From the NCBI GenBank assembly GCA_017506865.1, contig JAFCMP010000517.1:434001-498000 (forward strand): a stretch of DNA of 64,000 nt, given 5' to 3'. Positions 4,301 through 46,500 of the stretch are shown here, piece after piece; positions within the stretch are counted from its first letter, which is position 1, and every line of letters begins with the position of its first letter. The notes under the pieces are model-generated. The model was not told the DNA's origin, ran no database searches, and worked only from the letters and a program-made list of their open reading frames with translations. Origin of the DNA: Tribonema minus (lineage: Eukaryota; Sar; Xanthophyceae; Tribonematales; Tribonemataceae). The position numbers and the translations under genes are program-made.

Positions 4301-6125
4301 TGCATAGCATTGCATACACGCTTCAACTACAGTACATTGGCGTCAGTCCTTCATACGCAGTTCACATGCAGTTCACACACAGTTCATATGCCGTTCGGAC
4401 TGTATGAATATTCATCGACCGCCGAGCGCATCCGCCTCTCACCTTCTTCCCGAACCTCAAGTCTGTGCGCTTCAAGTTCTCCAGCGACCCCTCCCCCCAC
4501 ATTCCGAGACCAGGGCTCCACAAGCTGCCCGCAAGGCTGAGCCACGCCAGCGATGGCAGACACGTGATCTCCGACGGCACCTCCGAGAGAGATGGGTTCG
4601 CCGCAAGTCTGCGAATGGCAGTCACGTTGCAGGAAACCTCCAATTTCAGCGGCTAGTACACGTGTATGTAGCAAAACAGTGGCATGCCTTTGTTCAGTGG
4701 CAGCGTCATGTATGGTCACTGCTGAACTCAACTGCCTGTTCAAGTGTAGCATGATGCTGGCATGCCTCCGCAACCTGCGGCCAGGTGTGAGCAGTAGTTC
4801 AGTCTCAGGATGCATTGCGCACGTAACTTATCGTTTGTGGATCAAAATGTAGTTTGATCGAGGTTGCGGCCACTGTAGCACCAGCGGACATATGGTGGCT
4901 CCCAAACACACTGTTTCGACGTCCATGGACGGGAGAACACTGGGCCCGCTTGTGGAGAAACGGTACACAGTGGCGTGTTGACTGTGAGCCGTCAGCCCAT
5001 GAACTCTTGAGCTAAAGAATGCCAGCACCAGCCAGAGGCTGCACACAATTATTGAGCCACGCTGTAGAACATTTGCTTATTGACATCAGACCAGATCCTG
5101 GCTGCATAAATAGCCTCACAAAAAGTAGCCTTATCAAGGTGTATTGCAGTTGACGTGCTCACCTACAAAGCTCAAGTGACTCGCATCCCGCCATCTCAAC
5201 AGGCAGGGTCGTGAGGTCGTTGAAGCTGGCCTGTAGCTTCCGCAACCGCTTGCACTGGCCGAGGCTTGCAGGAAGTGCCTGCTCATGCGGCAAACAGGCT
5301 TTATGAGGGCAATCGGTGCGTGCAGGAAGGACCAGTGCGCACGCACGGTACCCCGTGGCAGCGCCGATCTGATTGGTCAACGCTGTGCAAGCCTAAGCAT
5401 CACCGCTTGCACTGTGAGAAGGCCCCTTGAGTTCTCAACAACAACGTGTCGGGCACGCGGCAGCAGGCTATTTTGAAGGAATGGGAGCAACATGAACGGA
5501 CCTTGAGATTGTTTTCTGTCACGTATAGCTCCACCAGGCTCACGCAGCATCCTATGGTGGTCGGCAGCGCCGTCAAGCTGTTGGTCCTCAAGCCCAGCAC
5601 CTCAAGCTGGGTCAAGCGCCCCAAGCTCTCCGGCACAGCTCCAGAAAGCTTGTTGCACATGAGGTTTAGCCTCCTGAGCCTTCTGAGCTTCCCGATGCCC
5701 TGGGGCACCGCCGCCATCTTGTTGTGGCTGAAGTCGAGCTCGGTGAGCCTGTGCAGGCGCAGCACTGCTGACGGGAAAGTCTCCAGCTGGTTCTTGGCCA
5801 TGTTCATACGTGTCAGTCCTCGCAAAGCATCCAGTGCTACGCCCCTCAGGTCTTCATCGCGCAAGCCCAAACCTGGCAGTTGCAGGTCTGTCAATGGGTG
5901 CAACCACGGGAGCATGCGCACCAGCGAACTGCTGCAGGCCTTGGAGAGGCCAGCCTTAGTGTCCACTACCCCATCTTGAGTGCCGGTTCTCTTCTCTGCC
6001 GCATTTGACGCCAGCTTCACAGCGACGGTGAGGCTCGTGACGCAGAGAGCTGCAGAAACAGCGATTGCCGCAGCGTGCACAGCAAGGAGCACAGGGACGG
6101 ATTCCTGCTCCCTCTCCGTCACCAT
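1322..6125 (-). CDS. Membrane-anchored leucine-rich-repeat protein kinase with atypical catalytic loop
   Basis: Six exons join without a frame break: 6125-5502, 5278-5163, 4608-4443, 3251-3099, 2226-1986 and 1638-1322. They give 538 aa. Residues about 10-38 form a hydrophobic helix (signal anchor). Residues about 70-290 carry LRRs of the type L..L.L..N.L..LP. The kinase follows: glycine loop GEGASGSV at about 304-311, lysine in DVAVKLW, catalytic loop HGDLYAHN at 423-430, DFG at 443-445 and a terminal RPSFAEL. The Arg of HRD is Gly and the Lys of DLK is Tyr. The activation segment is very short, with no clear APE. Lys, catalytic Asp, Asn and DFG Asp are all kept, so activity is possible but uncertain. 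The fourth intron has a GC donor (AAG|GCAAGT). The gene is divergent from the receptor kinase at 6308 and a role in signalling is inferred. There is no obvious truncation. Confidence 0.8.
3596..3834. repeat. Diverged tandem repeat, about 120 bp x 2, in an LRR-kinase intron
   Basis: Two units starting near 3596 and 3717 share the order ATATGGCACCAAA-GCAGGCGCAGT, a middle CAGGT block, a TTTGCT-CA-GGTCAA block and a final CAAAGTGC. They are roughly 75-80% alike by eye. The repeat lies in the third intron of the minus-strand LRR kinase (3252-4442). A shorter direct repeat (CAGCAGTGACTTGAG) lies at 4240-4300 in the same intron. Confidence 0.7.
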
Positions 6126-6307
6126 GGCAGAGCTGACTGCCGCTTAACGCGTCTACACCCAGCGCGTCAACTCATGAATCGAACTTCAATCATGCCCGAC
6201 GTATAGGACGAGCGCCAACAAACGCGCGGGGGTACGCCGCGCTATTATGCCGAGCAACTAGCTGTGGTGCGGCGCGGCGCGCTGGAGTAAGGCGTAGCCA
6301 CACTGCC
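6126..6307. promoter_or_regulatory. Shared bidirectional promoter of the kinase pair
   Basis: Only 182 bp separate the initiation codon of the minus-strand LRR kinase (6125) from that of the plus-strand receptor kinase (6308). The interval must contain both 5' UTRs and the core promoters. I see no clear TATA box. Co-regulation of the two receptor-type kinases is inferred from this geometry only. Confidence 0.6.
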
Positions 6308-9300
6308 ATGCAGGCACTGCGTTTACTTTGCGCGGCGCTAGCTCTGGTATCCACCGGCGCTGCCAGGTAAGCCTCCACTCTGGCTGTTTATGTTGCATCG
6401 TCCGGTTGTGGGATCAAGTGCTGCTCGCCATGCCTCCTTTGCCAGCACAAACGCCGACGCAAGCTATACTTAGTCTGTGTTTTGCAGACTCACTTGTGTG
6501 CACGGCTCCTGCTCCCTTGAATTATTTGCTGCACGTGCAACTCGTCATGTGTGCTCCAGTAGGCCGCGCCGTGCCTCGTCAGCTTCGGTGCGTGCCTGCT
6601 TCTCTGCAGCTGCCGGACTCGCTATTGTGCATCATTGAAGAGTATGCCGTCACCTCCTGCGCCGCAGGCGTCGGCGCTGGGAGCAGCAGCTAGTGCGGAA
6701 TTTGGCCAACAAGGGTGAAGACCAGCAGGTGCGAATTTTCCCAACCTTGTTTGATACTGCTCTTGTGCTCCTGTGCTGCGCAATAAGTACGAGAGTTGCA
6801 GAAGTGACTGTGGCTGACGTCCAGCGGTGAAGGCCTTCTGCCCGTTCATTTGCACATTGTTACAAGCGCTTCCGAGATCAGCGATTAAATAGTGCTTTTT
6901 AGTTCGAGCAAGTAATGCTGACTGATTCTGCTGCTGATTTACTGCAGGAACTACGGCAACAGGACCACTCCCAGCTGTTTGCCGGAAGCTACAGGAGCAG
7001 CGGCGATACATTTGCGCTGCGGTCACCAGATCAGCGCCTGGAGCTGCACGTAACTGCACTAAATGGAGTGGCGGCGCTGTGGCTCAAGGATAGCAGTGGC
7101 GAGGAGGACGCAGAGGCAGTGCACGTAGCGGGCGTGGCAGGCGATACTGCATATCTGCAGCTGCGGGTGAGTCTTCACAGTCCGATCGCGCTCACTGGGG
7201 CCCCTGCTGCACGACCTTCACAGAGACCTTCTATGACAGAAGCTTAAGCCCACTGCTCTGGAAGTAGCAGACTACTGCATTTCAATGCGCACACTATGTA
7301 ACTGTTCATTGCATCACAGCAAGCTAAGAAAATAGCACACGCATGGTCTGCTACACCACCAGGTCTTGCATTTGCGCAGCAGAATGCTTCCTGTGGGGGC
7401 CTGATTGTCAGCATCAGGGTACCCTGCCGCTAGTGGATACTTCAAATTGCATCACGGCGTATGGCAAGATGCTGCGCTATGCAGACGTGAGGCCTTTAGC
7501 CAACGCCATGGCCTATGTGTGTGAAGCGCAGAGGCTTTACACACAGCCGTGCTTACCCGCACTTCAACACTTGAAGTGTGCACAGATGAGGACGCGGTGC
7601 TGCGTGAGTCGCACAGCTTCTGCCCCTGTCAGGTGCTTATTTTCAGTAAAGACAGCAAGGAGTGGTCTGGGCTGCCTCGACATGTAGATTATCAGCTGGA
7701 TGTATGATGTACTGCGCTATACACCAAGTCTTGTAAACCAGCACATGCCATTGCCAGTCCAAGCAGGCTCCACTGTCTGCGGTCATGAAGCACTGCATGA
7801 GGCTATGCGTTTGCAGCCGTATACGAGGACTGGAGCCCATGCGATCCGACTTGGGCAGCAGGCGGCATGCATAGAATTGAAGCAGAGAAGGCATTCTCAT
7901 CACAACACAACCAGAGGAGACCAGGTTGCACAAGCACATCTATGAGCGATGTCAACCCATCGTCGTCCAACCCTGTGACTTGTGCTGCAGTGTCTGCACT
8001 AGCGGTCTACTGGGTGCTGGCCATGCAGACTCTATCATGGAATCTGGTTATTAGGCACTGGCTTGTGGCAATGAAGGCTGTACCATGGTCGCATGCGCTT
8101 CAGCAGTGTGTCAGGTCTACCACGGCATGTACTCAGAATAGAGAGCACTTAAGGACAGGCGGTGGTGCTTTCTGAGACGAATGTGAAGTTGTTGAGGCTC
8201 GTGTTGAAGTTGCCAACATCACATCGTGGGCAGACTGCTGCGTTTGAGGAGTAGTGACTCCTTGGGAAACTGCACAAATTGGTTCAAAGAGTGTCCGCAA
8301 CAGGCCACAATGCTTGTGGTAGCAGCATGATGTACTTGCGCTGGCAGGATGTCACAACAAAACTGCAAGCCACGTTTCCAAGTTGCACGGTCCGATCGTC
8401 ATGGATAACCTACGCCAACAAGGCCAAGTGCTTGCTTTGCACGTGGAGGAGTGTGGCGTGGACCTCAATATGCTGAAAGCTCTGCCATTGAGCCTTGTGC
8501 CTATTGATCCCCTGTATTGCAATTCTCTTACCTCCGGTTGCCGTTTTTTGAATCAAGACGCTTGTCAACTTGAAGTATTACTGCACAGCGGCATGCGCAT
8601 GCACATGCATTTAAGCTGCATCTCTCTTACTCTGAAGTACTGTTCTGGAACACCGACGTATCACCATCATCAATCAGGGTTTCATTTTACCGTTTGCACC
8701 GTCTTCCCCAGCTGCCGCTGACTAATGAGCTGGTTGAGTCTTCCAGATGCGGACCACGTTCTTTGCCGTCAGATATGCATCATTTATTTTCAACATGCCT
8801 GAACTTTCCTTTTGTGAACTGCTCTTTGACAGGCACACCAAATATTGAACACGGATGCCCCAACCTCATGTGTTGTATCATTTGCCATCGCCCCCTCCCC
8901 CCCCTTTCGCGTGCAGCGATATGGTCAGCTGGTGCTGACCGATGCGCTAGATGAGTCAGTGGCGGCAGCGCCACAGGCACAGCTATATGGGCTGCTGAGC
9001 AACGGGGATGTTGCCAGCAGATCACGATTTCAGGCGAGTGCTCACACAGTGCTCGATACAACTACACCTTTGACGGCAAGCATTCATATGCACGGATTGC
9101 AGTACATCAGTGGACTCTCAGAGTGCACTGGACAGTACATGGGCTCATGAGGCTGACGACAACGGAATGCGGCAGTGTCAGCAGAATAACAGCTCCATCA
9201 CTCTGCGACGGCGCATCCCGGAACCAAACTTTGCACCTCGCCATCACTGGGTTGACTGTGGCCGTCGAAGACTTCAACTGTGAACTTCTTCAACTTCAAA

Positions 9301-12300
9301 GTTGAGCTTCAAAGCAGCCAGCTTCCTACCTTGATGGCGCATGCATCATTGTAAGCGCCGCTCTCCTTGCGTTGTTCTATGAGCAGAGAAAGCTAAGCTG
9401 CCACATGGATATAGCAATTTATCATGTGCCATAAGCAAGCGTTGTCTCTCCTTGTCTGAGCGCTGCTGCCTCTTGTCTCAATACCTACCCCCCCACAGCA
9501 CGCCAGGGCTCATCTGACGGACGATGGCGACCTCTGCCTGAGGGGACAGTACGCAGCGGTCGACATTGTGTGTCGGCGGTTGGCCAAGAAAAAAAAGAAG
9601 AAGAAGGGTGGAAAAAAGGGGGGTGCGCAAGGGGACACGCCGGCGCCGACGGTGGCGCCAACTCCTGAATTTTCAGGTACGCTTACTGCCCCGTGCTGCT
9701 TCCGGTATGCATCGATTGTGTTTAGTATATTTGCGTCCAGTGAGCGTCGCCAACATGCGATAACCGCAGTACCGGTTTAGCCCTACTACTACAGTAGTTC
9801 TAACCCGAGGAGCAATGTGGCGATGGCGCAACGGACTGCTCGCTCTCCAAGTGCTGCCTGCCATCACAAATACTTCAAGACCTTACTTCAAGTACTTGCA
9901 CGTATCGCCCACTGTAGTGACGCGCCTTCTATGTTTGCTGATGGGCCTTGTTCGGCGTGGACAAATTGAGCGGTTGGCGGTTTCGGCAGCTGCCCAAGCC
10001 AATTCAATACACAGCAATGGTCGCCATGCACACTGCAGACTCACGCGTGGGAGCCCAGTTGAAGTCAAAGAACCCCTGATTATGGCAAATGGGCGTGGGG
10101 AAGGCCTGCAACTTCAACCTCAAGACACAGGCGGATCTGAATCTGAATCACTTCAAGTGTGCTTGAGTGGCGTTACCGTGCCTGTCCGGCAAAACACAAT
10201 GCGAACACTGTTGTTACACCGCGGCGTACAATCTGGGCGGCACTGAAAGCCAGATTGGGCACGTTGGCGACCCCCCTTGGCGGCAGCTTACCTGTTCTCG
10301 CTTTAAGTGCGGTATTGTACTGCTCTTGTACTGACAGATGGGCTTGGCGTTGCGAGGCGAAGCGGGCTCAGACTCAAACGCAAACTTACTGTCCACCCTA
10401 GCCCTGAGGCGGTGCAGTCGCAGCTAGCAGGACAATGCGCCCCCTGTGACTGCTGGCGCTGTAGCAGTGCTCAACTGCCGTAACTGCTGGCGCTGCAGCA
10501 ACCGTGACTGCTGGTGCTGCATCAGTGCTCAACTTTCTGATGTCGTGTCAACGCTCAGCTGGTACTGCGTCACCGCCCGGCCGCTGCTGCTGCACGCGAG
10601 CACGCCTCTCTGCGCCTCGTCGACCTCGCCCCTGTGCCGGTCGGTTCAGCTAGCCATCCATCTTAGGGTTAGCGCCGCATCTCAGCAGAGCCAGTCGCCC
10701 GCAGCTATGCAAGCCGCATGCAGCAGCAGCGACGCATATGTCGCCGCATGCGACCATCAGCACATTCTATTGTTGATCATTTTCTCAAGAGCTCACGCAG
10801 GGCCAGCTGCGCGCGAACAGCTGCCTCTCTACTGCAACACACAGCAACACATGAAGCTGTGTGGGTGTTCGATGCCGAAAAGGGCGTCTGCCCTTGACCC
10901 GATGCTAACCCTAGTTATGCCTCGCCCCACCGCTCAGGGCCACCACAAGACCCGCAGACAGTCGCGCCGACCCCCGCACCCACCGCTGCTGAGACCGCGC
11001 CCCCCACTAAGAAGAAGAAGAAGGGGGGGGATGGCAAACCCAAGCCAGACAAGCCTACGGATCCACCACAAGAGACGGCGGCACCCACTGCGGCTGCCAC
11101 TGGTGACGGTGGAAGTACGTATGTCTCTGCCGTGCTCATGTGCGGCGCCTGTGTTTGTGTGTATGTTTGTAGGAGAGTATGGAAAGCATGCGCGCGGGAT
11201 GCTGTGGGGCAGGGGTTTTTGTTAGTGTTGGGTTTGGCAAACCTTAGGTAATGTGGGGTAGGCAAGTGTACGTGTTCGGCTGTGCGGTGCCCATGCGGCA
11301 GCATCCTCCAAACCTCGGCTGCAGCAGCAAACTGCCACTCTCAAATGCTGTTTGAGGCTGTTACTACTGCGTTCATCATGTCACCATTGTGCACTGCCAG
11401 CGTCATCTCCGACGTACGACGTACCCCAACCGTCTTCCTCCCCGGCACAAACCCCCGCTCCCCCCCCCCTCCAGACCCCCCTAAACCCAAGACGGACGAG
11501 CCGGTCACAGTAGCCCCCACCATCGCTCCCACCGCACCCCCCACCAAGAAGAACAAGAAGCCCAAGCCACCACCAGACCAGACGGACGCGCCCAAAACGC
11601 CGCCGCCAGAGACGCAGGCCCCCACGCCGCCACCGGATATGGCGACGCCTGCACCAACGACTGCGCCGACTGCTGCCGCCACTACGCCTGCCCCTACAGG
11701 TTAGAGGTTGCAGAATTGCAGGGCACGGCAGCGCTCTGTGTGCCTGGTTGTGTGTCGGCACCTACATGTATGTATTGGGAGGGGGGGGAGAGGGGGGGGG
11801 GGAAGAGGAGGGCAGAGTGATTGTGTACTTGTCTATAGGCTGTTGTGGCTGGCTCTGTATGTGTGTGTGTTTATGTGTGTGTGTGTGAACACGAAAGCTA
11901 GCGAGTGTGTATTTGGCGCCGCGTGCATTTTCACATAGGCTTGTCTGTGTGCGGAGTCTGACACTGTACGTGGTCCTCTGTGTGTGTGAGTGACCGCGTG
12001 GTCCATGCGCGAGCATGTATACCATGCATATATGTAGGTGCAAGTATGCCTGGGTAGGCAAGTATCGCGTCTTTGCGTGGGTATCATTGTCCACGCATGT
12101 GTATCATGCATAAGCACTTGCCTATGAGGCGAGAAGACGCGAACTGTCTCCTCGAGGGTATAAAATACCGGCTTGTCTCCATGGACTGCACAACCAACCC
12201 TGACCCTAGGTCTCAACCGCCTGTCTCCATCTTGACAGCGGCAGACACCACACCTGCACCAACGGCCCCCGACACAGCGGCCCCCACTGCAGCAGACACC

Positions 12301-15300
12301 ACACCGGCGCCAACAGCCCCTGACACAGCGGCCCCAACTGCGGCAGTTACACCTGCGCCAACGGCCGCCGAGACCGTGGCGCCGACTGCGGCAGTTACAC
12401 CTGCGCCAACGGCCGCCGAGACCGTCGCGCCGACAGTTGCGGTTCCCGAAACTGCCGCGCCCACGGCGGCGCCGAAGGTAAATCAAATCAGGCAACCATA
12501 TCATAAATGCTGTCATACAAGCAACACCAGCAAGCTGGAAGGGTGGGAAACTCAGGTGGACAGGTTCCAGAACAAAGTGGTGTGATTGATACGATGGAAT
12601 GGGAACGCCACGCCCGTCTCACCAGACGTCTTATTGGTTCGTCAAAAAATGATGCTGGAGGTGTTGGACCAGCTCAAGAACAAAGACAGGATGGCAACTA
12701 GGACCGTATTTGCTTCTGTTGGTACAGAAGGATCGGAAACAGAAGCAATTGATCAACAAGTCAACACACGCATTTGGGCGTGAGTGAAGCTATGGCACCT
12801 TGTTTGTTTAGTGTTTAGCCATCGCGAACTTGTTGAGTTTATTGCGATGCCTCTAGTAGTCTATTTCTGGCTCTGAGTTGATAGCGCATTTTTCAGCTCG
12901 TCCCATGAACGCTTGCTGTGCTCTCTTGGGTTACCCATAAAAGTGGCATGTTGTGACATTACACTATGTCATCTGCTTCTTGCAGGCCTTCGTCCGCCGC
13001 ACTTGCCACTGTTGACGCAGCTAAAATAACGGCTCTGTAGTCCAAAAATACCTTCTACATGTGAAATTTGTGTGGGCTGCAAAAATTTTAGAAATTGAAA
13101 CAGAGTCATGGACTGCAAACCTTATTGTGTTCGCTTGACAGTTTTCATGCTTTGCGCGCTGCTACTGTACCGCCGCATCTGCAGACGACAGCGCCGACTG
13201 CCGCCACACCTGCACCAACGGCCGCCGAAACAGTGGCCCCGACTGCGGCTGTTACACCTGCGCCAACGGCTGCCGAGACCGTCGCGCCAACAGTTGCGGT
13301 TCCCGTAACTGCCGCGCCCACAGCGGCGCCGGAGGTGAGTTCGAGTTAGCGTACCGTGTTATATTCTGTCATATGAGCAAGTTGAGCATATGAGCAACTC
13401 TAGGAAGCTGGAAGAACCACGTTATATTCTATCATTCGAGCAACTTTAGGAAGCTGGAAGAGCAAAGCAGGTAGACAGGGTCCCAAAAAAAGCGGTGTGA
13501 TTGATACGATGGCAAGGCGCGTCTGCGCATATATCTTGTTGGTGCGTTGAGAAAGGAAGTTGGGGTTCTGGACCAGCTCAAGAACAACGACAAACCTGTA
13601 ACTGGGACCGCGATTGTAACTATTGAGACAGTAGTCCCAATGCTGAACAAGTTGACACGCATTTGGGCGTGACCGGAGCTGTGGCAGCTTGATTGCCATT
13701 GCGAACTTGTTTGGTTTTTATTGCGATGCCTGTAGGAGTCTAGTCGTGATTCTGACTTGATGGCGCTTGTTTCAGCGCGTCCCGTGCTCTTTGGCCAAGA
13801 GCATTTGGGGCTTGAATTTCCCATAAAAGCGGCCTGTCGTGACATAAGATGTTGTCTCCCGCTTCTTGCAGGCCTTTGTCTACTGCTGACGCAGCTGAAG
13901 TAATGGTTCGGCAGTCCATTCACATCTTTACTCATACTTTGTGTGTGGGCTGGAAACATCATCGAAATCAATGACAGAGTCATGGACTGCAAACTTCATC
14001 AAATGTACGCGTGACAATCTCGTGCTTTTGCGCGCGCTGCTACTGTACCGCCGCATCCGCAGACGCCTGCTCCCACCAAGGCACCGACACCTGCCCCCAC
14101 GAAAGCCCCCACCCCCGCTCCTACCACGTTGCCCCCCACTCCTGCACCGACGAAAGCGCCCACACGCGCGCCAACGCCCAAGCCTACAGCCGCGCCGGTG
14201 GACACGACGGCGCAGACGGAGGCCTTTGAGAGCATACTCGTGGGGCAGGACGCGTCGCGCTTCACGGCGGAGTACCAGGCGGTGTGGGCCAACACGGTGC
14301 GGACGTTCGCGTCCACGGCCGCGGGGGGCGCCCCGGGCGTGCGCGTGACGCTCACCGACGTCGCCGCGCAGACCGGCGGCGGCCGCAGGTATGTATGCAT
14401 GTGGATGAGGGACTAGAGTGAACGTCAACCAGGGTTTGTGCTTGGCGCGCTTACGGTTGATCGGCGAGCATTGCAAATCAGTCTGACGGTGATGTATCGT
14501 GGTGTGACGATGCATGGGCGTGAGGTGCAGGCGAGCCGTCTTAAAGGCAGCGCTCAGGGGGCATTACATTGTTCGCATGTCATCGCGGAACAGTCAAAAT
14601 ACCTTGAACCTCTTCAACTTCTTCGAGGATAGAGTATGATGCATTCAGTACACCTTGAAGCATATTTCAGGGGTATAAACTACAGTATATGGTCCTCTGA
14701 AGTGGATGCATGCAGGCACGCAAATGCTCGACCAACAGCAGCTTGTGCCCCATGTGCATGCACTTGCACTCACACACTCCTTTACACTGACCCCCCACAT
14801 CCGCACCCCCCTACCTACTCACCCAACACCCAATGCTCCATGCCTGTTGCTCTCTCACACGCAGGCGCAAGCTCCTCCGCGCCGATGCCAGCACCAGCGC
14901 TCAACACCAGTCGCAGCAGCAACAGCGGCAGCGGCATCTGGCGGATGCCAGCACGCGCATCCAGTACGACGTCACCAACATCCCGGGGCCCGCCGCCGCC
15001 GCCGCAGTCTCGCGCCAACTCGTCGCTGCCTCCGCCGATGGCGATCTGCTCACGGCGTTCCGCTCGAACGTGAACGCGTCAGGGCTCAGCGCGACGCCCA
15101 TCACCGCCTCAGCGCTCGTAACTACCGAAGGCGGGACCAGCGCCCCCGACCCCGCGCAAGGGGGGGGCGGGGGGGGGGGAGGGGGGGGCACGAGCCTGCT
15201 GCCGATAATTTTGGGGGTTGTGGGCGGGGTGGCGGCGCTGGTGTTGGCGGCGGTGTCTGTGAAGTGCTACCGGCGGCACAAGCGGCAGACGCAGGGCGGG

Positions 15301-18300
15301 CAGACGGAGCTGCGGAGCGTGTTCAACAGCTCGCGCTGGAGCAGCCTCATGTCCAGAGGTATGTACGCATGTATGCACAGTGTTAACCCTAACCCTAAGT
15401 GTTGGTGTGCCGAACCCTAACCCTATCCCCTAATCCTACGCGGGGTACGCAGCTGGTGTGTCAACGGTGTGACTGCAAGGGCACTGCAGAGCCAGTACGG
15501 CACCTAGCAGCGGGGCCGCCTCAGGTCCAGAGGTAGGCACGTAAGCGCGCATGCAAGAGTAGGTAGCTATTGTGTCAACGGTGTGCTTGCAAGGGTGCTG
15601 CAGAGCGTGTACACAGCTCGCGCTGGGGAAGTCTGAGGTCCAGAGGTACTTCTATGTAGACAGTATGCGCGCATGCGTGCAGCGCAGGTTGCTCATGTGT
15701 CTTGACTACGCCTATGTATCAACTGGCTCTGAGGGGCCCGGGCAGCACTACTGCTGCAGCTACCGCCACAATCATACTTCGAAGTATCATAATTACATAC
15801 TCATCACCATCCGCCGCGACGCGTGCCGCAGCAGGCGCCGCACCCCCCATCGTTGCCTCCATCCCCGACGTCGACTCCGAAGCGCCAACGCAGCCGCCGC
15901 CGCCACCGCAGCAGCAAGCGCCACTTGTCGACAGCCACCCGCAGCTCGCGCGTGCGCCCGCATTCAGCGGCGCCGCCGCAGGCGCAGCAGCCGCCGCCGC
16001 CGCGCCGACGCAGAGTCAGACTCGGTCCGTGTCGGCGCCGAGGGAGTCGGAGTCGGAGTCCCGGTCCACCATGGCGGCGGTGCAGCAGACGGAGTCTGTG
16101 ATGGCGACGATGATAGGGGCGGCGGCGGCGACGACGCGCCCTGCGTGGGAGGGCATGGGGCTGGTCGCGCGCAACCTACCGTGGATCGGCATTGTGTACT
16201 CCATGTGCAGCGACATTGTGGACGCATTTGACCAGCACGGCATCGTCGACGCCAACTGCAAGGAGATTGCGCGCTGGGGGATGGACGTGCAGGTACGCGC
16301 GCGGCGCGCAAATGATGATGCGAAAGTGATACTAGTTGCAGTTGCACTTGCAGTTGCACTAGCCTTGCTTCTGCTGCCCTTGCCTGGTGTGCGCCAAGTG
16401 CTGACGCCAACTACAACTGCAAGGACATTGTGAGCATGGTCTGCGGGTGGTGCGGTGTGTAGGTACTGATGACGACGTCAGTGCTCAACTTCACACCTGC
16501 AGTGTTCGTCATGACTCAGGCGTTTGAGTTGTTGTTTTTGTCGAGGAATTTTATTTTGTGCAGTAGAACTTCAATCGCTCATGTTCAAGTCTAAGTATTT
16601 CAAGACAACTTCAAACCACTCACGCTCAACCTCAACACCCGCGCGGCGCAGGAGCTCCTCCATGCACCTGGAGAACCATGCCGCAGGCCGAGGCGCGCGT
16701 CAACATGGCCATTACAGCATCTTTGCTAACGCATGTAGCAATAACCAGCATTGGGCCCTTGTTTATATCCGCTCCACATTGACATTATGGTCAACCTCAA
16801 CTCACAATCCCTGCTTCTTCCTGCGCACAGGAGCTCCTGCATGTAGTCGGCATGCATCTCGAGATCATGCCACAAGCAGAGGCGCCCGTCAACATGGCCA
16901 TAACTCAATGTAGTCATGCCAACCAATGCACAGCACAAGGTCCATTTCCATGTACACTCAAGATGACGTTTGGCCAACTTCAACTTCAACTGCCTGTAAA
17001 CTTCCGTACCCCCTGCGCAGGAGCTCCTCCACGTCGTGGGTATGCATCTCGAGACCATGCCGCAGGCGGAAGCACGCGTCAACATGGCCCTCATGAAACG
17101 CGCCACAGAGACCCTGGGCCAAGTCCAAGCGCTCGCACACAAGCACCAGCGCAGCAACTTCCTGGTGCAGTTTGCCATGTCGGGGCGCGTTCGCGACCTG
17201 TTGCAGGAAGCTTCAAGGTGTCTGGACAGGGCCTTTGAGGGGCTGCAGCTGGGGGTCAGCACCGCGGGGCTCGCTGTGAGCCTGCGCATCGACCAGAACG
17301 TCAACACGCTGCTGGAGTGAGTCAGTGCTACGCATCATGTGTTGGTCCTTATGTGGAAACAGAATGTCGGTTTGAGCTGCTCAAGCAAGCTAGTCGCTTG
17401 TGCTGGTGGTGTAATTCAGAAGCAGGCAACGCGCTGTACTAGCGAATTGTCGCGCGCGTTGTTGGTGTAAAGCGGTAGCGCGGTATTGCTGCTGGTGCTG
17501 GGAGACCGGTGTGAGCCTAACCCTAACCCTAACCCTGCACGGTCTGTGTGTGTGCGCACATGCCTGCCTGTATGTCTTCGGTGTGTGGATAGGTCGCGTT
17601 GTTGGGTGTAGGCTTTACGTGGGTGCGTTTGCAGGTAACAGGCCGCTACTGGCTATGCGTCCTTGATCTTCACTACTGCTGCTTCAACATAGCGTCGTAG
17701 GCCAAGTCGTGTACGCTGTGCAGCTGTTTACAGGGATTGCTACCCTCTGCAGCATGTCCTTCTCTCCATAAACGCGTGCATACCACCGCCTCCCTTTAGC
17801 CAGAAACATCTCCTAATGCCAAATCCATTGATGGTCACCCCCTCTATCCATCCCCCCTGCGCAGGTCCATGGAGGCCTTCCACGGGCGCCTCAGCAAGAT
17901 CGACGAGCTCCAGGTCAAGCTCAGCACGTTTGGCACCTGTCTGCAGCGCATCGAGACCACGCTCTCCGCCAGCCACTCCTCCTCCAGCTACTCCTCGCAG
18001 AGCACTGCCGCGGCATCACACCCCGCGGCAGCAGCGGCAGCGGCAGCGGCGGCGAGAGCGCCGTCCGCCGCCGCCGCGCTGCCGCCCATCACCGAGGCGG
18101 AGCTGCAGGCGGGCGCGGTGCCCGAGGACAGCCTCGGCACTGAGGTGACGGACGGCAGCTTCTTCACGGAGAGCCTGACGTCGAGCGGCGGCAACAGCGC
18201 AGGGGCGGGGGCGGGGGCGGGGCCGCCGCTGAGCGCTGTGGAGAGCAGCGCCATCACGGGGGCGCTGGAGCGGCTGCAGGTGCGCTAATTAGGGTTAGGG

Positions 18301-21300
18301 CTTAGTGTCAGGAACTGGCAGGATTGTGGGTGGGGGTCAGGGCGCGGGGGGGGGGGGGGGTTGAGTGCATAGGGAGGTCGGGTAGGGGTTAATGCCGGGG
18401 GGGGGGGGGGGGGGGGGGTAGGGTTGGGTGCGCAAGGAGGTCGGGTGCTGGACTCTTAGGGTCAGGGCTCGGTGGTGGGGTGGGGTCAGGGTTGGGGTGG
18501 GGGTTAGGGTTGAGGTGGGGGGTACCTGTTGGGTGTGTAGGGTTTGGGGTGAGTGAGGGGTAGAGTTGGATGTGCGTAGGGGCGTTGGGGTGTGGAGTTG
18601 GCTTTAAGCTTGAGGTGCTCTCTATTGCATCCGCATGCTGCGTTCATCCCGCAGCTCCTCACGTGCGCAGACCCAGAACAGGTGCCGCTGTGAGCACTAA
18701 GTAAGGTACACAAAGCCTCATGATGGGCATTGTGATTGCGCTCATGGTAGCACCGGCGGCTGTCGTAATGGTGACTGCAGACATGTACTGTCATGGCCTA
18801 CACACCATCAGGGCAAAGGACGCGGGTCCAGGCCGTTGCTGATGAGAACGTGAATGTTGAAAGAACCTTGAAGTTTGATGACAATGTCATGTGTTGTCAA
18901 CTTGTGTCGCGCTGCACGCATCGCCGCACGCCTGTGCAACACAGGCCACAGCGTTTATCTGCCGTCATCTCCCATCGCGATTGCCTTGGCAAGGCAAGCG
19001 CAGTGGTGAGAGACAGGCTGTTCCCGCCCAATACAGCAACTGCGTACATCCAGCCACTACGCTCCTCGATGCTCACGCTGCAACCGCAATCATCCCCCAA
19101 GACGCCCATATGGGGGTTTGAGGGGTGCTCCTTTCCGCGTGTGGCGAAGGCGGTGAAACAGCCAGCATGCAACGGCGAAGGCAGTAAAACAGCCAGCACG
19201 GAAGGCGCATCCCCCAAAACCTCCAGATGCGCATCCTGGTAGATGATGGCAGTCGCCTGAATGTCGAAGAGTGCAGTGGCTGGATGTAGGCGGACGCTGT
19301 AGCGGGTGAGGGATAGCGCCTCCCTGGTCGCTGCGCTTGCCTTGCTAACGCAGTCGCAAAGGGAAATGCCTATCCCTTGCCGTCCAGTCAGAATGAAAAA
19401 CCAGGTGGCCTTCCTTCCTGACCTGAACTGTTGTGCAATGTACTGTGTGTTTGTGTCGTATCCCAGGTTCCACCGTCACAAATCAGGAAGACTGCTTCTG
19501 GTCCCATTGGCAGCGGCGCGTTTTCCAAGGTCTACGAAGTCAATTACAGGGGCAGGATATGCGCGGCCAAGGTGAGCATGAGGTTGCTACACTGTGTCAT
19601 GCGGATTAAGATGGCTCCTGCTGTGTTGCTGACGAAGATCGGTTCTGTTGCTAGTGTCGTCATGGCGCGATCTGACTCATTTGTGGTCCAGAAGCGACTT
19701 GCGCATTGGCCATTCAGGAGGCTCCTGCAAAGCTGACATCTTGCATATTCTTTCACATTGTGCGATGTGTTGTTCAAATACACAACAGCCTGTGTATGCA
19801 GGGGTAGTCACCGCGCTGACATCTCGCCAGCCTACCGCTAGTTAGTCAAACCCTAGCCTGGTCCTCCAACCTAGCTCAAGGGCAACTGGCGAAGCATGCT
19901 TGTTTTACTGCATGTCTCAGCGCGCTAGTACTGCCGGTCATGTGTGGCAACTGCCACCAGACTGCCATGGCAGCAAGAAGCACAATGGCAGCAGCTGCTC
20001 GCATTCAGCTACAAACTAGTGTACGGATGGAGACACGTCTCAGCTCACCTGCAGTATACAGGTGTTCATCAGGAGTACATAGCAGTACACACATGCACTC
20101 ACCATTGTAGCTTGCACATTCAACATTCAATACACACACAAACACACACACACACACACACACTTGCCTCCGCGTGTGCTCACCAGCAGTACGCAGCAGC
20201 ACAGCCTTGTGCTGAGCATCATCGCCCACATATACACACACACTCACACCCCTGGCCGGCACAGCAGTACACAAGCGTTCAGCAGCAGTACGCAGCGGTA
20301 CACACACGCGCTGAGCATCACCGCGTGCAATGTTCGCACGCGCAGGTGGTGCACCTGGCCGGCATGACCGCCGAGCAGCTTCAGCGGGTCTACATGCGCT
20401 TCTCGCGCGAGGTCTACATCCTGTCCACGCTGCAGAGTCCGCGCATCGTGCCGCTCTACGCCTGCGCCAGCACCACGGAGGACCTGACGCTGGTGATGCA
20501 GTACATGAGGCGCGGCAGCCTGAACCGCGTGCTGTGCTCAGAGAATGCGTGGCGCGAGGTGACGCCTGAGATGCGCCACAGGCTCCTGTGCGATGTGGCG
20601 CAGGGCATGCAGTACCTGCACGACCGCAACGTCTACCACAGGGACCTCAAGAGGTGACTTGCCAGAGGCTCATATCTGTGTCGCGTGGTTGCATGCAGCG
20701 AGTTCGGCTTCTGCAGCAGGTTGACCACGACACTTGCTTGCGTCTGTGTTGTGGGTTGCACGATGATTGAAAGCTTTTGTTGAAGCACAATCCACCATAC
20801 ATAGCGACAAACATTGTCCAATCACTGATGTTTGAAAGAACGTGCGTTCATACAGTTGCGCGTTGAGCGAGTGTCACTCTTGCTGACCCCTACTACAGTG
20901 ACATGAGTAATTTCATAAGACACACAACCTTGTACTTCAACATGTCCCCCCCTGCGCTCCCTTCATGTCACTCTTGAATTTTGGACCTTGTTATGTGGAG
21001 CCATGCCTACGTCCTACTCACGCCCCCCCTCCCACCCCCCGCACCCCCATTTTGCAGCCACAACGTTCTCCTGACGGACGACTGGCGCGCCGTCCTCACG
21101 GACTTTGGCATGAGCAAGACGTGCAGCGCCATCACCGCCGCCACGCATGCCAAGTCCACCTACGCGGGTGGCACGGTGAGCTGCTGGCGTGCTCGCATCT
21201 GTACCGCTTTGTTTCGTTGTCGGCTTGAATTTGCTGGTGCTTGTTGCCCGTTTCCAGTGATAATGTGCATGTACTCAGCTGCGTAGGGCATAGTTCAACT

Positions 21301-21718
21301 CGTCCATCTCCGTTGACTTGGTGTTGATGTCTCTCTTGCATGCTGTCTCTTGCGCACATGGCAACAGCTCGCGTGGACAGCTCCAGAGGTCTTCAAGCCG
21401 CGCGTCGGCGGCGGCCACCGCAGCAACTTCACCTTCAAGTCCGACGTCTACTCCTACGGCATCGTTGTGTGGGAGGTGCTGGTGGCGGACGCCGCGCGCG
21501 CCGCCCCGCAGGCGCGGCGCTGGATCCAGCAGCAGATGGGCGAGCTCGTGGCGGCGGTGCTGCGCGGCGACCAGCCGCCGCTGCCGGCGGACAGTGTGAG
21601 CGACGCCAACGTCGCGCGCGCCGCGTCGCACGAGGCGCTCATGCGCCGCTGCCTCGCCGCGGAGCCCGAGGCGCGCCCGTCGTTCAGGGAGGCGGTCGCG
21701 GAGCAGGCGGCCATGTGA
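6308..21718 (+). CDS. Lectin-type receptor kinase with Pro/Thr stalk and MLKL/HeLo-like juxtamembrane domain
   Basis: Eighteen exons keep one frame: 6308-6366, 6560-6587, 6948-7166, 8917-9033, 9499-9676, 10938-11114, 11475-11699, 12239-12477, 13185-13334, 14063-14388, 14865-15358, 15832-16292, 17021-17316, 17865-18279, 19467-19571, 20346-20653, 21058-21175, 21368-21718 (1,421 aa). Residues 1-20 are a signal peptide. About 35-165 resemble a bulb-type lectin (LTDDGDLCL, LLSNGD). About 180-510 are Pro/Ala/Thr repeats with Lys clusters. About 512-660 form an alpha/beta ectodomain, perhaps SEA-like. A TM helix spans about 682-706 and is followed by basic residues. About 840-1023 are amphipathic helices resembling the MLKL-type HeLo bundle (family similarity judged by eye). 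The kinase (1129-1421) has GSGAFSKV, AAK, HRDLK, DFG and APE, all canonical, TKL-like. Exon 4 ends in a GC donor. Exon 2 (28 nt) is the least certain. The cytoplasmic helices plus kinase suggest a signalling or death-effector receptor, which is inference. Confidence 0.78.
7167..8916 (+). other. Large intron 3 of the receptor kinase
   Basis: This 1.75-kb intron runs from the donor after LQLR to the acceptor before RYGQLVL. Its open frames are short and carry no domain signature. A C-rich pyrimidine tract precedes the acceptor at 8916. I see no nested gene. Confidence 0.6.
9677..10937 (+). other. Intron 5 of the receptor kinase
   Basis: The phase-1 donor after EFS and the acceptor before the next Pro/Thr exon enclose 1.26 kb. 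One long open frame here (10446-11225) runs from the intron across exon 6 in the wrong frame and is not a gene. No other feature was recognised. Confidence 0.6.
12360..14065 (+). repeat. Tandem exon-plus-intron duplication in the receptor-kinase stalk
   Basis: The end of exon 8 with its downstream intron (12360-13184) is repeated as exon 9 with its intron (13205-14062). The introns share a GTGATTGATACGATGG block (12581 and 13497), GGACCAGCTCAAGAACAA (12667, 13570) and a CTGCTACTGTACCGCCGCATC acceptor block (13161, 14038). The exons share the VTPAPTAAETVAPT unit. The duplication lengthens the extracellular Pro/Thr stalk without changing frame. Confidence 0.8.
15384..15435 (+). repeat. Interstitial telomere-type repeats (CCCTAA)
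   Basis: Two short CCCTAA arrays (15384-15398 and 15413-15435) lie just after the donor of receptor-kinase exon 11, inside the intron. Confidence 0.85.
16652..17085 (+). repeat. Threefold repeat of the 5' edge of receptor-kinase exon 13
   Basis: The first 65-75 nt of exon 13 (true start 17021), with its AG acceptor, occur twice more in the intron at 16652 and 16831. All three read GAGCTCCT at the start and share CGTCAACATGGCC. The upstream copies are diverged, carry shifted or altered codons and have no good donor, so I treat them as exon ghosts, not exons. Confidence 0.82.
17516..17535 (+). repeat. Interstitial telomere-type repeat (CCCTAA)3
   Basis: A perfect CCCTAA array of about 3.5 units lies in the intron after receptor-kinase exon 13. 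Confidence 0.9.
18345..18560 (+). repeat. G-runs and degenerate TTAGGG-like tract downstream of exon 14
   Basis: Starting about 65 bp after the exon 14 donor (18279) there are poly-G runs near 18347-18360 and 18399-18418. They are embedded in GGGTTAGGG/GGGTTGGGGT-like sequence. The tract resembles eroded telomere repeats and could form G-quadruplexes in the intron RNA. Confidence 0.65.
18960..19385. mobile_element. Foldback (MITE-like) element in receptor-kinase intron 14
   Basis: An inverted repeat of about 80 bp is formed by 18978-19063 and the reverse complement of 19275-19355. Both arms contain GGCAAGGCAAGCGCAG and ACATCCAGCCACT. The internal 200 bp carries its own short inverted segments and no coding potential. 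No clear target-site duplication was found, so the class is unknown. Confidence 0.65.
20132..20163. repeat. (CA)n microsatellite
   Basis: An ACACAC tract lies in intron 15 of the receptor kinase. It is embedded in a wider CACA-rich, GCAGTACAC-repeating segment (20040-20330) that runs up to the exon 16 acceptor. Confidence 0.85.
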
Positions 21719-42631: not shown

Positions 42632-43105
42632 TCAAGAAACATAAGACATGGCTTTTGCAAAAGGTGCCAAACAAACTGAACAAAGATCATGCAGACACAA
42701 ACTTCGCGCACGCAGAGAGGCACCACTCACATCAACAGACCGCTCGACCGTTGCTGCTGGCGCCGCATTCGCCACTGCAGGGCTTCCCATCGCCACCCTT
42801 AGCGCCACTGCCGCCACCACCCCCGCTGTCATCTTGCGAACAGAAGCTGGGACCAGCCTTCGCTTTCGCCCCGGCTGCTGTTGCTGCGGCTGCGCTTGTT
42901 GCTCCTGTTGTGAGCCAAAGATGAATCGCCTGATGGCAGCCCGCTTTCCATTGGGGTTCATCGCCATGACTACACCACCTGCATGAGGTTGCGCACTCTT
43001 GTGTCGAAGGCCATGTGCGGTACTGAGCGAGGGCGGAACAAAGGCCAACACGACGCCTTGGTGCAGCGCCACGAGGCATGCCACCGCTAATACCTGCAGT
43101 CTCAT
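42632..43105 (-). CDS. Plastid-targeted protein, 5' part (hypothetical)
   Basis: Exon 1 runs from the ATG at 43105 to a GTGAGT donor after 42731 (125 codons). Read through, the frame stops at 42632. Residues 1-21 are a signal peptide (MRLQVLAVACLVALHQGVVLA) directly followed by FVPPSL. This A|F-x-P junction matches the heterokont bipartite plastid-targeting motif (family knowledge). A Met/Ala-rich transit-like stretch, a Gln-rich patch, a basic KRRLVPASVRK segment and a hydrophobic Ala-rich helix (VVAAVALRVAMG) with a thylakoid-signal-like ANAAPA follow. The downstream exon was not identified, so the product is unknown. It is divergent from the dynein gene. Confidence 0.6.
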   Translation of the reverse strand: MRLQVLAVACLVALHQGVVLAFVPPSLSTAHGLRHKSAQPHAGGVVMAMNPNGKRAAIRRFIFGSQQEQQAQPQQQQPGRKRRLVPASVRKMTAGVVAAVALRVAMGSPAVANAAPAATVERSVDVSGASLRARSLCLHDLCSVCLAPFAKAMSYVS

Positions 43106-43528
43106 GATCAGCAAGCTCTGGCACACTGCACGGAAGTATCTACTGGCATCCCTTTGGAGGCAGCCACGTGGCCGAATTTCACTGCGACTGTTGGGCATAA
43201 CGGTCGCCTTTGTTTTTTTGCTTCAGCACAAAAGGCTGTGCTTTGCTCGCCAGCGGCACTGTGGTCTACGTCGATTACATGGTAGACCTGTAGAGAGACG
43301 CCAATCACTGGTGGAGAGATAGCTGCATTAGTCGGTGTGCACTAGAGGAATAGCCTCGCGGTCACACCTGTCCTACAATTTTGCCAGTTTGCAATCGAGG
43401 AGTGGCTGTACCGGAGCACGCAAGGCGTATAGCGGGCGGGACCAGCGGTTTGAACAGCGCTCTGCTGTTTGAAAACAAGCGCGGCTGATAGGGGCGCTAC
43501 ATAGGAGCGGATCGCAGCTGCTGCAGCC
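43106..43528. promoter_or_regulatory. Divergent promoter region: plastid protein / dynein
   Basis: 423 bp separate the minus-strand plastid-protein start from the plus-strand dynein start. This is the third head-to-head pair in the window. No specific element was identified. Confidence 0.45.
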
Positions 43529-46500
43529 ATGGGGGACCGCGAGGATGGCGGAAAGCGGATGGACTCTCGGGTTGAGTACATTCGCAACCGCGCCCTCAGC
43601 ACTTTCCCAAAGATGGCGGGGCCTAAGTTTGAGAAGGGCTGGACCGCAGAGGACTCGCAGACGAAACTGCTGGAGTTCCTGGATGGTTCCGACCTCACCA
43701 AGCCCTTCCTGTACTGCCCGGACACCATCCGGCTAGACACGGGCATGCCCAAAAAGCTGCCCAAGGGGAAGTCCCTGGTCTTCATCAAGATCAACGACGG
43801 CAACCCCATCGCCGCCGACAGGATCAGCGCGGAGGTGCTCGCGGTGGAGGTGGGGGGCAGCACCCCCTTTGAGCACGTGGAGCTGATGGCGCAGGAGGTC
43901 TTCCTCCCAGTGCTCAGCAACGGCCCCAACCAGGCGCGGTGGGGCGAGGTGCCCACGCGCGAGATCATGGACAAGTTCTACTCGTTCCTGTCCAGCAGCA
44001 CCATACTGTGCGGCCAGATCCGCGGCGAGACGCGCCTGCCGATGCCGCCCATGGACGTCGGCAGCGGCGCTCAGCAGGGCAAGAACCGCATCTCGCTGCT
44101 GGAGGGGGCCATCATCACCTGGACCAAGCAGATCAAGAGCGTGCTCAAGCAGGACCCGGAGGGGCAGCTCAAGCAGGGCATGCACCCGACGCCGGACGTG
44201 GAGATTGAATTCTGGAAGTCCAAGGCCAGCAACCTCAACTCCATCTTCGAGCAACTTCAAGGGCCGAGCATCCGGCGCGTGCTGCGCGCGCTCGACCAGA
44301 GCAAGAGCACCTACTGCACGACGTTCGCGCGGCTGTGCAAGGAGGTCTTCACGGCGCGGCTCGAGGCGAACGACAACATCAAGTACCTGCGCACGCTCGA
44401 GGACTGGTTCGACAAGCTCAACGGCGAGGCCGATTTCCCGCGCCTGCTGGAGCTGTTCAAGCCCATGATGCACATCATCCTGCTCATCTGGAAGAACAGC
44501 AAGCACTACAACACGCCGGCGCGGCTCGTGGTCCTCATGCGCGAGATCTGCAACTCGCTCATCGCGCAGGCGTGCAAGTACAGCAGCGGCGAGCAGGTCT
44601 TCGCGCTCATCGAACAGGACGACGCCGCCAAGGCCGTGGAGCAGTTGAAGATGACGCTCCTCGTCTGCAGCAGCTTCAAGTCCACATACTTTGACTACAA
44701 GGCGACGGCCAACGCGGAGTGCCCCGCGAACCCCTGGCGCATCCAGAACAACGCGCTGTTCATGCGCCTCGACTCGTTTCTCGAGCGCTGCCACGACATC
44801 CTCGACCTCACGCAGACGATCGTCCAGTTCAGCAAGCTGTCCAAGATCGAGATCGGCGGCACCAAGGGCAGCGCGCTCACGGCGAGCATCAAGCAGATCC
44901 ATGCGGACTTCGAGGGCGCCGTGGGGCGCTTCAAGTGCGTGCCGTACGACATGACGGACGTCGCCGCCAAGCAGTTCGACGACGACTTCTACGCCTTCCA
45001 CTGCACGGTGAAGGAGCTGGAGCACCGCCTCGGCGCCGTCGTCTCGCTCGCGTTCGATGACTGCTCCACCGTCTACGGCCGCTTCAAGCTCCTCGACTCC
45101 TTCGAGGGCCTGCTAGAGCGCCCCATCATACAGGACGAGTTGGAGAAGAAGTACGTGGGGCTGGTCCAGAGCTACGGCGCGGACCTGCGCCTCGTGCAGG
45201 AGCTCTTCCTGCACTACCGCGAGGCGCCGCCGATATCGTGGAACCTGCCGCCGATCGCCGGCGCGCTGGCGTGGTGCCGCGGTCTGGTGGAGCGCATATG
45301 CATACCCATGGGGAAGCTGCAGCAGCTGGATCGGAGCATACTGGACAGGGAGGAGGCCAAGGAGGTGAGCGCTGCTGCAACGCGCGCGCGCGCGCGCGCG
45401 AGCGAGAAGTTGAAGTACATGTTAGGCACACTTCAACTGTGACTCTAGCGGTTGGCAGAGGGCTGTGAGAGGTGACAGTGTAGTGGATGTGGGGTTAGTT
45501 GTGAAAGCGCTAAGGGTACAGGTGCCGTGGGTGTTTTGCGTCAGCTGGGTAGAGGGCTTCTGGTCAAACTAGCACCAAGTAAGCGCGGTGAGAGCATTGG
45601 CAATCCTGCTATTAAGTATAACATAAAGACAGGGCAGCGCCATCGCACTGAGCCAAACAGCATTTCTTTAGCTTGCGCAGCTGTCAAGTGGGGATGCACA
45701 CCACACTCACAAGAGCACACCAAGAGTAACAACGCTGAGCATTGCTGTACGTCATTAGCTGTGTGACGTGCGTCACAGAGTTGCCATCCACATCAGCTTA
45801 GTGCAATGATGAGATCATATCATGTGGCCCAGCTGCATGCAGCTTAAGCAGTGGGCAATGAGCAACACTGCTGGTGACCCATGCAGTGCGGCTTGTCCGT
45901 CCTGTTGCCTACGGCTACCATCACACACGTTACCTGCCGCCTTAGGGCCAGGCCGGTTCACAAAGTGTTGAAACTTCTCGCTGATGTTATATCATGCTGA
46001 GCACTGGAGCATTCCATGTTCAACATATTCCTCATGCTCAGTGCTAGCGCCGCAGTGCTCAGTCCCCTTGAGGAAGCTGTTCGCTGATGTGATGTTATGC
46101 TATATTGAGCATCTGGGCGGCATGCATACTGTGAGCACGCAAAGCCGTGCGCCGCTTGCGCGCACATGTCTCACGTTGTGAATTTTTTTTTTTTTTTTGC
46201 CCATAAGGCATGCGTTCTGTGACACTGACAGTCCCAGAGCAGGGCTCAATCATGAATTATGACATTCTGTTCTGCTAAACACTATGCGCTTATCATGCAA
46301 ACAACCTTGCAGAGCACTGCTGCGTGCTGTGCGCCGTTACCCCCGGAGATCTTTCCGTACAACTACCGACAGATCTGCTTACCATTGGCACAACAGCTGT
46401 ACTTGTTAATATTCATATTACAAGTAAGGATTGACGTTACAGATGGTGAAATCATACTTAAACATGAGTCTCACTGGTGCCACCGTCGCCACTGCCACGC

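Follow-up and report, generated by a model that had tools for sequence, protein, structure and literature searches.

A candidate receptor kinase of the alga Tribonema minus with a putative MLKL_N-related helical module between its membrane helix and its kinase

Animal MLKL is a soluble protein comprising an N-terminal four-helix bundle, a brace and a kinase fold, and it acts when the pseudokinase releases the bundle. Wheat Pm13 and the plant MLKL_NTD/DUF1221 kinases likewise combine a four-helix MLKL_NTD with a kinase; according to the available text of PMC10951266, Pm13 keeps the catalytic residues and the animal MLKL kinase domain is a pseudokinase. HeLo or MLKL bundles have been described in animals, fungi and plants (available text of PMC9950082, PMC10197012), and transmembrane (TM) receptor-like kinases of the tyrosine kinase-like (TKL) group are described in oomycetes (available text of PMC3019232). 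Here a gene of the alga Tribonema minus was analysed within a 64,000-nucleotide stretch (assembly GCA_017506865.1, contig JAFCMP010000517.1, positions 434,001 to 498,000, forward strand; hereafter the window). We give a probability of about 0.5 to the reading that it encodes a single-pass receptor kinase in which a four-helix module, distantly related to MLKL_N (HeLo-type), separates the membrane from the kinase. The layout hints at a fusion of a surface receptor with a death- or adaptor-type module in one protein.

Gene model and module-bearing paralogues

The gene model was derived from genomic sequence. Eighteen spliced exons (6308-21718) gave 1433 codons with zero internal stops, beginning with an ATG at 6308 and closing with a TGA that ends at 21718. 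Sixteen introns were GT-AG and one (intron 4) was GC-AG. The predicted order of parts was signal peptide, ectodomain, Pro/Thr stalk, one TM helix, linker, helical module, linker and kinase (Table 1), and the receptor-kinase layout of signal peptide, ectodomain, one TM helix and cytoplasmic kinase holds in this model. A first-pass annotation had proposed a single frame over 18 exons with a signal peptide, a Pro/Thr stalk, a TM helix and a canonical kinase. The 1433-residue frame was indeed uninterrupted, the stalk was present in the spliced model, and the signal peptide (1-19) and TM helix (about 695-716) were both read from the sequence. The helical region was confirmed in exons 12-14, with its limits moved from residues about 840-1023 to about 867-1034.

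The kinase (residues 1140-1433) matched Pfam PK_Tyr_Ser-Thr with an expect value (E) of 1.5e-44. Its catalytic motifs were read from the sequence and were intact: Lys at 19569-19571, HRD at about 20637-20645, DFG at 21101-21109 and APE at 21380-21388. The best PDB matches, after one EGFR construct whose top score was the sum of two stretches, included CTR1, RIPK2, TNNI3K, B-raf and IRAK4. By sequence the kinase is a member of the TKL group. Since Lys, HRD, DFG and APE were all present the kinase should be active, and it was classed as apparently catalytically active.

The N-terminal ectodomain matched 0 Pfam families at E ≤ 1. Against PDB sequences it gave two rows at E 0.5-0.8, neither of them a lectin, and a search of its own genome returned self matches only at E ≤ 1. 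The "lectin-like repeats" of the earlier annotation were thus unsupported by Pfam, PDB sequences or genome matches, and on these sequence searches the lectin reading was set aside. Exons 1-10 were placed from splice sites and open frames only. Because the lectin label and exons 1-10 were unsupported, the annotation as a whole was graded partly confirmed.

A search of the assembly (158 Mb, 554 contigs, designated C with a number; the window is part of C514) with the module found six paralogous loci besides the window: two on C224 (C224a, C224b), two on C516 (C516a, C516b) and one each on C517 and C12. In five of the six, C12 being the other, kinase exons came after the module exons with the order unchanged, and both exon 13 borders agreed in position and phase in these five. 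The kinase exon borders were not all shared: C224b and C517, for example, lack the intron before the glycine loop, and in these two loci the final helix of the module shares a single exon with the linker and the glycine loop of the kinase. In C12 the ectodomain, stalk, TM helix and module start share one open exon (L024:6448-8883). A TM-like helix followed by basic residues was found upstream of the module in five of the six loci, using a first and then a looser scan, and was not found upstream of the C517 module in either scan. The models of the C224 and C516 loci omit the exons that lie between TM helix and module.

Alignment A1 comprised the modules of the window receptor, C224a, C224b, C517, C516a and C516b. 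Leave-one-out module profiles recovered both module exons in all six A1 loci, and the full profile recovered both in C12. Ratios of nonsynonymous to synonymous substitution rates (dN/dS) between paralogues, with the window receptor not included, lay between 0.12 and 0.30 for the module (five comparisons) and between 0.155 and 0.16 for the kinase (three comparisons). The module is under purifying selection among the paralogues. The kept borders, the profile recovery and the low dN/dS therefore indicate that the module is coding, conserved and part of a receptor family.

In the C224a locus (C224:886001-906000) the reading frame was broken at the glycine loop of the kinase, and some sequence near the C-helix was apparently absent. 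Its module exons were conserved despite the damaged kinase N-lobe. Its kinase may be either a pseudokinase or a young pseudogene.

Relation of the module to MLKL_N

The window module matched Pfam MLKL_N (PF22215; curated cut-off 27 bits) at 20.7 bits (E=0.00032, profile positions 16-110), below the cut-off; a query that included the kinase gave 18.8 bits (E=0.0012). Among the six A1 members, matches at E ≤ 10 were obtained for three in nearly the same register: the window receptor, C224b (about 0.04) and C516a (0.03-0.04). Elsewhere in the genome MLKL_N exceeded the cut-off at six places, on C7 and C159 (near-duplicates), C379, C533, C103 and C71. A Pfam kinase match followed MLKL_N on C379 (1.2e-44), C103 (2.1e-10) and C533 (8.9e-5, below cut-off). 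On C7/C159 a glycine-loop-like stretch was seen by eye after MLKL_N, with no Pfam kinase match. On C71 (L031, C71:94501-97830) one 620-residue open frame combined MLKL_N (2.5e-7) with ARM-like repeats (1e-11) and gave no kinase match in Pfam. No TM-like helix was found within 1500 bases upstream of the six MLKL_N places, beyond which further exons are possible.

Alignment A2 comprised six sequences: C7/C159 (as one), C379, C533, C103, C71 and a weak match at C159:18083. In a PDB search with the A2 profile the first seven rows were all MLKL (E 1.3e-14 to 7.4e-13); a weak point is the eighth row, an unrelated chain at 7.3e-5. Profile-profile comparison of A1 with A2 aligned 124 columns (89%, E=2.1e-6), and a second receptor set including C12 (A3) gave 89% and E=2.3e-6. 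The scores for A1 and A3, 43.0 and 42.8, exceeded the maximum of 31.5 among 300 block shuffles (50 x three block sizes x two queries). Under other settings the score was 33.0, with a maximum of 16.6 in 120 shuffles.

Several results weigh against this relationship. None of the seven receptor modules scanned exceeded the MLKL_N cut-off, the window module alone reached E<0.01, and the Pfam scan gave no MLKL_N match for C516b, C224a, C517 or C12. For C516a and C516b the scan also returned SesA (E 0.02-0.05), an N-terminal domain of the fungal NLR type, and unrelated families scored about as well. The C12 module matched DUF1840 at 0.0024, presumably spuriously, and E values of such size are therefore no proof of kinship. 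In a single-sequence test one of six A2 members beat all 30 helical decoys. The A2 profile found one of the seven module-bearing receptor loci (the window receptor, E 0.029). Searched against PDB, the A1 profile gave 27 rows at E ≤ 10, of which 25 were exportin/CRM1 (E 0.04-0.06) and none MLKL. The kinship to MLKL rests on the step through A2. A further adverse point is the close kinase on C72, where a module was not found, so that such a kinase may work without one.

An own-genome PF22215 search listed 10 places, none of them receptor loci, and the module matched 0 families in NCBIfam. Viral contigs searched with A1 gave 16 stretches that fit a pattern, none of which was confirmed. AlphaFold2 modelled exon 13 alone as long helices with modest confidence (predicted local distance difference test 65.7, predicted template modelling score 0.56). 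The model gave no Foldseek match at E ≤ 0.001; its matches were generic helical ones, with no MLKL among the matches listed. The proposal of an MLKL/HeLo-like bundle gained real support from the sub-cut-off Pfam match, the profile match above the shuffles and the A2 match to solved MLKL, which together are not conclusive. On balance the module is probably akin to MLKL_N, as a distant member, and we infer a four-helix bundle as its fold.

Five arrangements were distinguished in the genome. Receptor, module and kinase occur together in the window receptor, C516a, C516b and C224b, and also in C224a (damaged N-lobe) and C517 (TM helix not found). Receptor and kinase with module not found is represented by C72. 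Receptor and module with kinase not found is represented by two tandem C12 copies (searched to C12:359000), in the second of which a TM helix was called by eye and the module scored E=2e-4; these C12 receptors suggest a role of the module's own. The fourth arrangement is MLKL_N with a kinase, TM helix not found, and the fifth MLKL_N with ARM-like repeats. In a kinase tree C224b, C517 and C516 were grouped (support 100/99) apart from the window receptor and C72. The tree left out C224a, C12 and the partial kinases of C533, C103 and C7/C159, and the rows of C224b, C517, C516a and C516b were without one short exon. The root within the six receptors was not fixed, and C72 may thus be a case either of module loss or of original absence.

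Features of the window and genome context

Features of the receptor gene are listed in Table 1. Sequence similar to the brace-like helix was not found for the paralogues C516a and C516b. The start region of exon 13 was present in three copies (16677-16715, 16825-16904 and 17015-17094; 190-bp period, 83-87% alike), possibly reflecting exon duplication. Intron 14 (18280-18560) contained long G runs and GGGTTAGGG-like stretches, and CCCTAA repeats were present in introns 11 and 13.

Table 1. Predicted features of the receptor kinase gene, in window coordinates.
Feature	Position	Strand	Basis
Exon 1: start codon and signal peptide (MQALRLLCAALALVSTGAA), residues 1-19	6308..6366	+	Hydrophobic N-terminus, read from sequence
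Exons 2-5: N-terminal ectodomain, residues about 20-211, no known family	6668..9676	+	Splice model, Pfam/PDB/genome searches
Exons 5-10: stalk, Lys-rich first, then Pro/Thr/Ala-rich (APT repeats)	9600..14210	+	Sequence, splice model
Exons 10-11: juxtamembrane ectodomain (SEA-like by eye) and poly-Gly	14211..15195	+	No Pfam match above cut-off
TM helix LLPIILGVVGGVAALVLAAVSV, residues about 695-716, then basic stretch	15196..15261	+	Mean hydropathy 2.52
Exon 11 end and exon 12: low-complexity cytoplasmic linker, about 150 residues	15262..16184	+	Sequence, splice model
End of exon 12: helix 1 and first part of helix 2 of the module, residues 867-902	16185..16292	+	Splice model, Pfam scan
Partial exon 13 copies, two, in intron 12	16677..16904	+	190-bp period
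Exon 13: remainder of helix 2, helices 3 and 4, residues 903-1001	17021..17316	+	Splice model, Pfam scan, AlphaFold2
Exon 14 start: brace-like helix, up to residue about 1034	17865..17964	+	Similar sequence in C224a, C224b, C517
Exon 14 remainder: Ser/Ala/acidic linker toward kinase	17965..18279	+	Splice model
Exons 15-18: TKL-type protein kinase, residues 1140-1433	19467..21718	+	Pfam, PDB comparison, motifs

A leucine-rich-repeat gene (5403-6143, minus strand; LRR_8, 1.1e-15) lies head to head with the receptor gene, with fewer than 200 bases between the likely starts, and the two may share a promoter. Matches to dynein heavy chain at 43505-45439 and 60077-60814 (plus strand; DHC_N1 3.8e-136, AAA_6 2.3e-49) probably mark a long dynein gene downstream of the receptor. 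An open frame at 42635-43222 (minus strand) begins with a signal-peptide-like start followed by AFVPP and had no Pfam match at E ≤ 0.01. We take this start to resemble the plastid-targeting presequences of red-lineage algae.

The genome gave 83 light-harvesting exon matches and was accordingly classed as photosynthetic. The nearest PDB light-harvesting chains do not discriminate the algal group. The nuclear RuBisCO small subunit had no match in the genome, which suggests a plastid of the red lineage; a green alga was set aside as a reading.

Candidate mechanism, alternatives and described systems

We favour a clustering-gated platform, to which MLKL_N proteins would be drawn at the membrane. 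A ligand or contact would cluster the ectodomains, and the clustered kinases would phosphorylate one another or the linkers. Phosphorylation would free the module for self-association at the membrane. The freed module could then recruit other MLKL_N proteins, for example the TM-less MLKL_N kinases of the same genome, and recruitment would trigger a response, either of defence or of death. A role as an oligomerising adaptor is no less likely than a killing role. The intact kinase motifs and the internal position of the bundle speak against a mechanism copied from animal MLKL.

A real, if tentative, possibility is that the module is a regulatory spacer unrelated to death pathways, acting as a helical juxtamembrane coil through which the receptor dimerises and the kinase is restrained or set free. 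It occupies the position of juxtamembrane regulators in other receptor kinases, its MLKL_N support is modest, and the exon 13 model gave generic helical matches alone; the MLKL_N profile match, however, extends over about 125 columns and exceeds all 300 shuffles, and the module is present in C12 receptors where a kinase was not found and was not found in C72. A built-in executioner, in which the activated bundle inserts into and permeabilises the membrane like MLKL or HET-S, is unlikely. Distant MLKL_N kinship, a membrane placement already given and further MLKL_N proteins in the genome would suit such a role, but the bundle is internal, without a free N-terminus, and the kinase retains its catalytic motifs. 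The module carries almost no net charge (15 K+R and 17 D+E over 175 residues); since the same is true of most A2 members, charge decides nothing.

It is very improbable that two adjacent genes, a receptor without kinase and a module-kinase gene, were wrongly joined. The model comes from genomic sequence alone, introns reach 1.75 kb, and the C12 receptors show no downstream kinase; against this, the C12 TM helix and module start lie in one open exon, the last module helix and the kinase loop lie in one exon in C224b and C517, and the phases fit. Beyond the clustering-gated platform, we regard as doubtful the wider proposal that these receptors join sensing, a kinase switch and a necroptosis-type executioner or executioner-recruiting bundle in one polypeptide, the same module being shuffled among a receptor kinase, a kinase-less receptor, an MLKL_N kinase and ARM-repeat proteins.

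Within the same genome, the MLKL_N proteins of C379, C103 and C533 (and by eye C7/C159) resemble the receptor in the sequence of MLKL_N then kinase. They differ in that MLKL_N exceeds the Pfam cut-off and a TM helix was not found; the C379 kinase is about 34% identical to that of the receptor. C72 shares the Pro/Thr stalk, an Ala-rich TM-like helix (by eye, mean hydropathy 1.98) and a kinase 51-63% identical in pieces, and differs in that a module was not found. Among the open-licence literature matches listed, no transmembrane receptor with an MLKL_N module was apparent from titles and abstract openings. Oomycete receptors share the signal peptide, TM helix and cytoplasmic TKL kinase, whereas an MLKL_N module is not described in the available text of PMC3019232. 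Pm13-type proteins differ in having the MLKL_NTD at the N-terminus and the kinase at the C-terminus, with no receptor ectodomain described in the available text of PMC10951266. In contrast to animal MLKL, to which sequence kinship was shown for the A2 proteins, the predicted bundle of the receptor follows a signal peptide, a TM helix and a linker, and the kinase motifs are intact, not those of a pseudokinase. If the reading is true, algal transmembrane MLKL-bundle receptors would extend a death or immunity module to another branch of eukaryotes and would provide a direct route from cell-surface sensing to an MLKL-type module. Since module and kinase occur naturally both together and each without the other, the contribution of each part can be tested.

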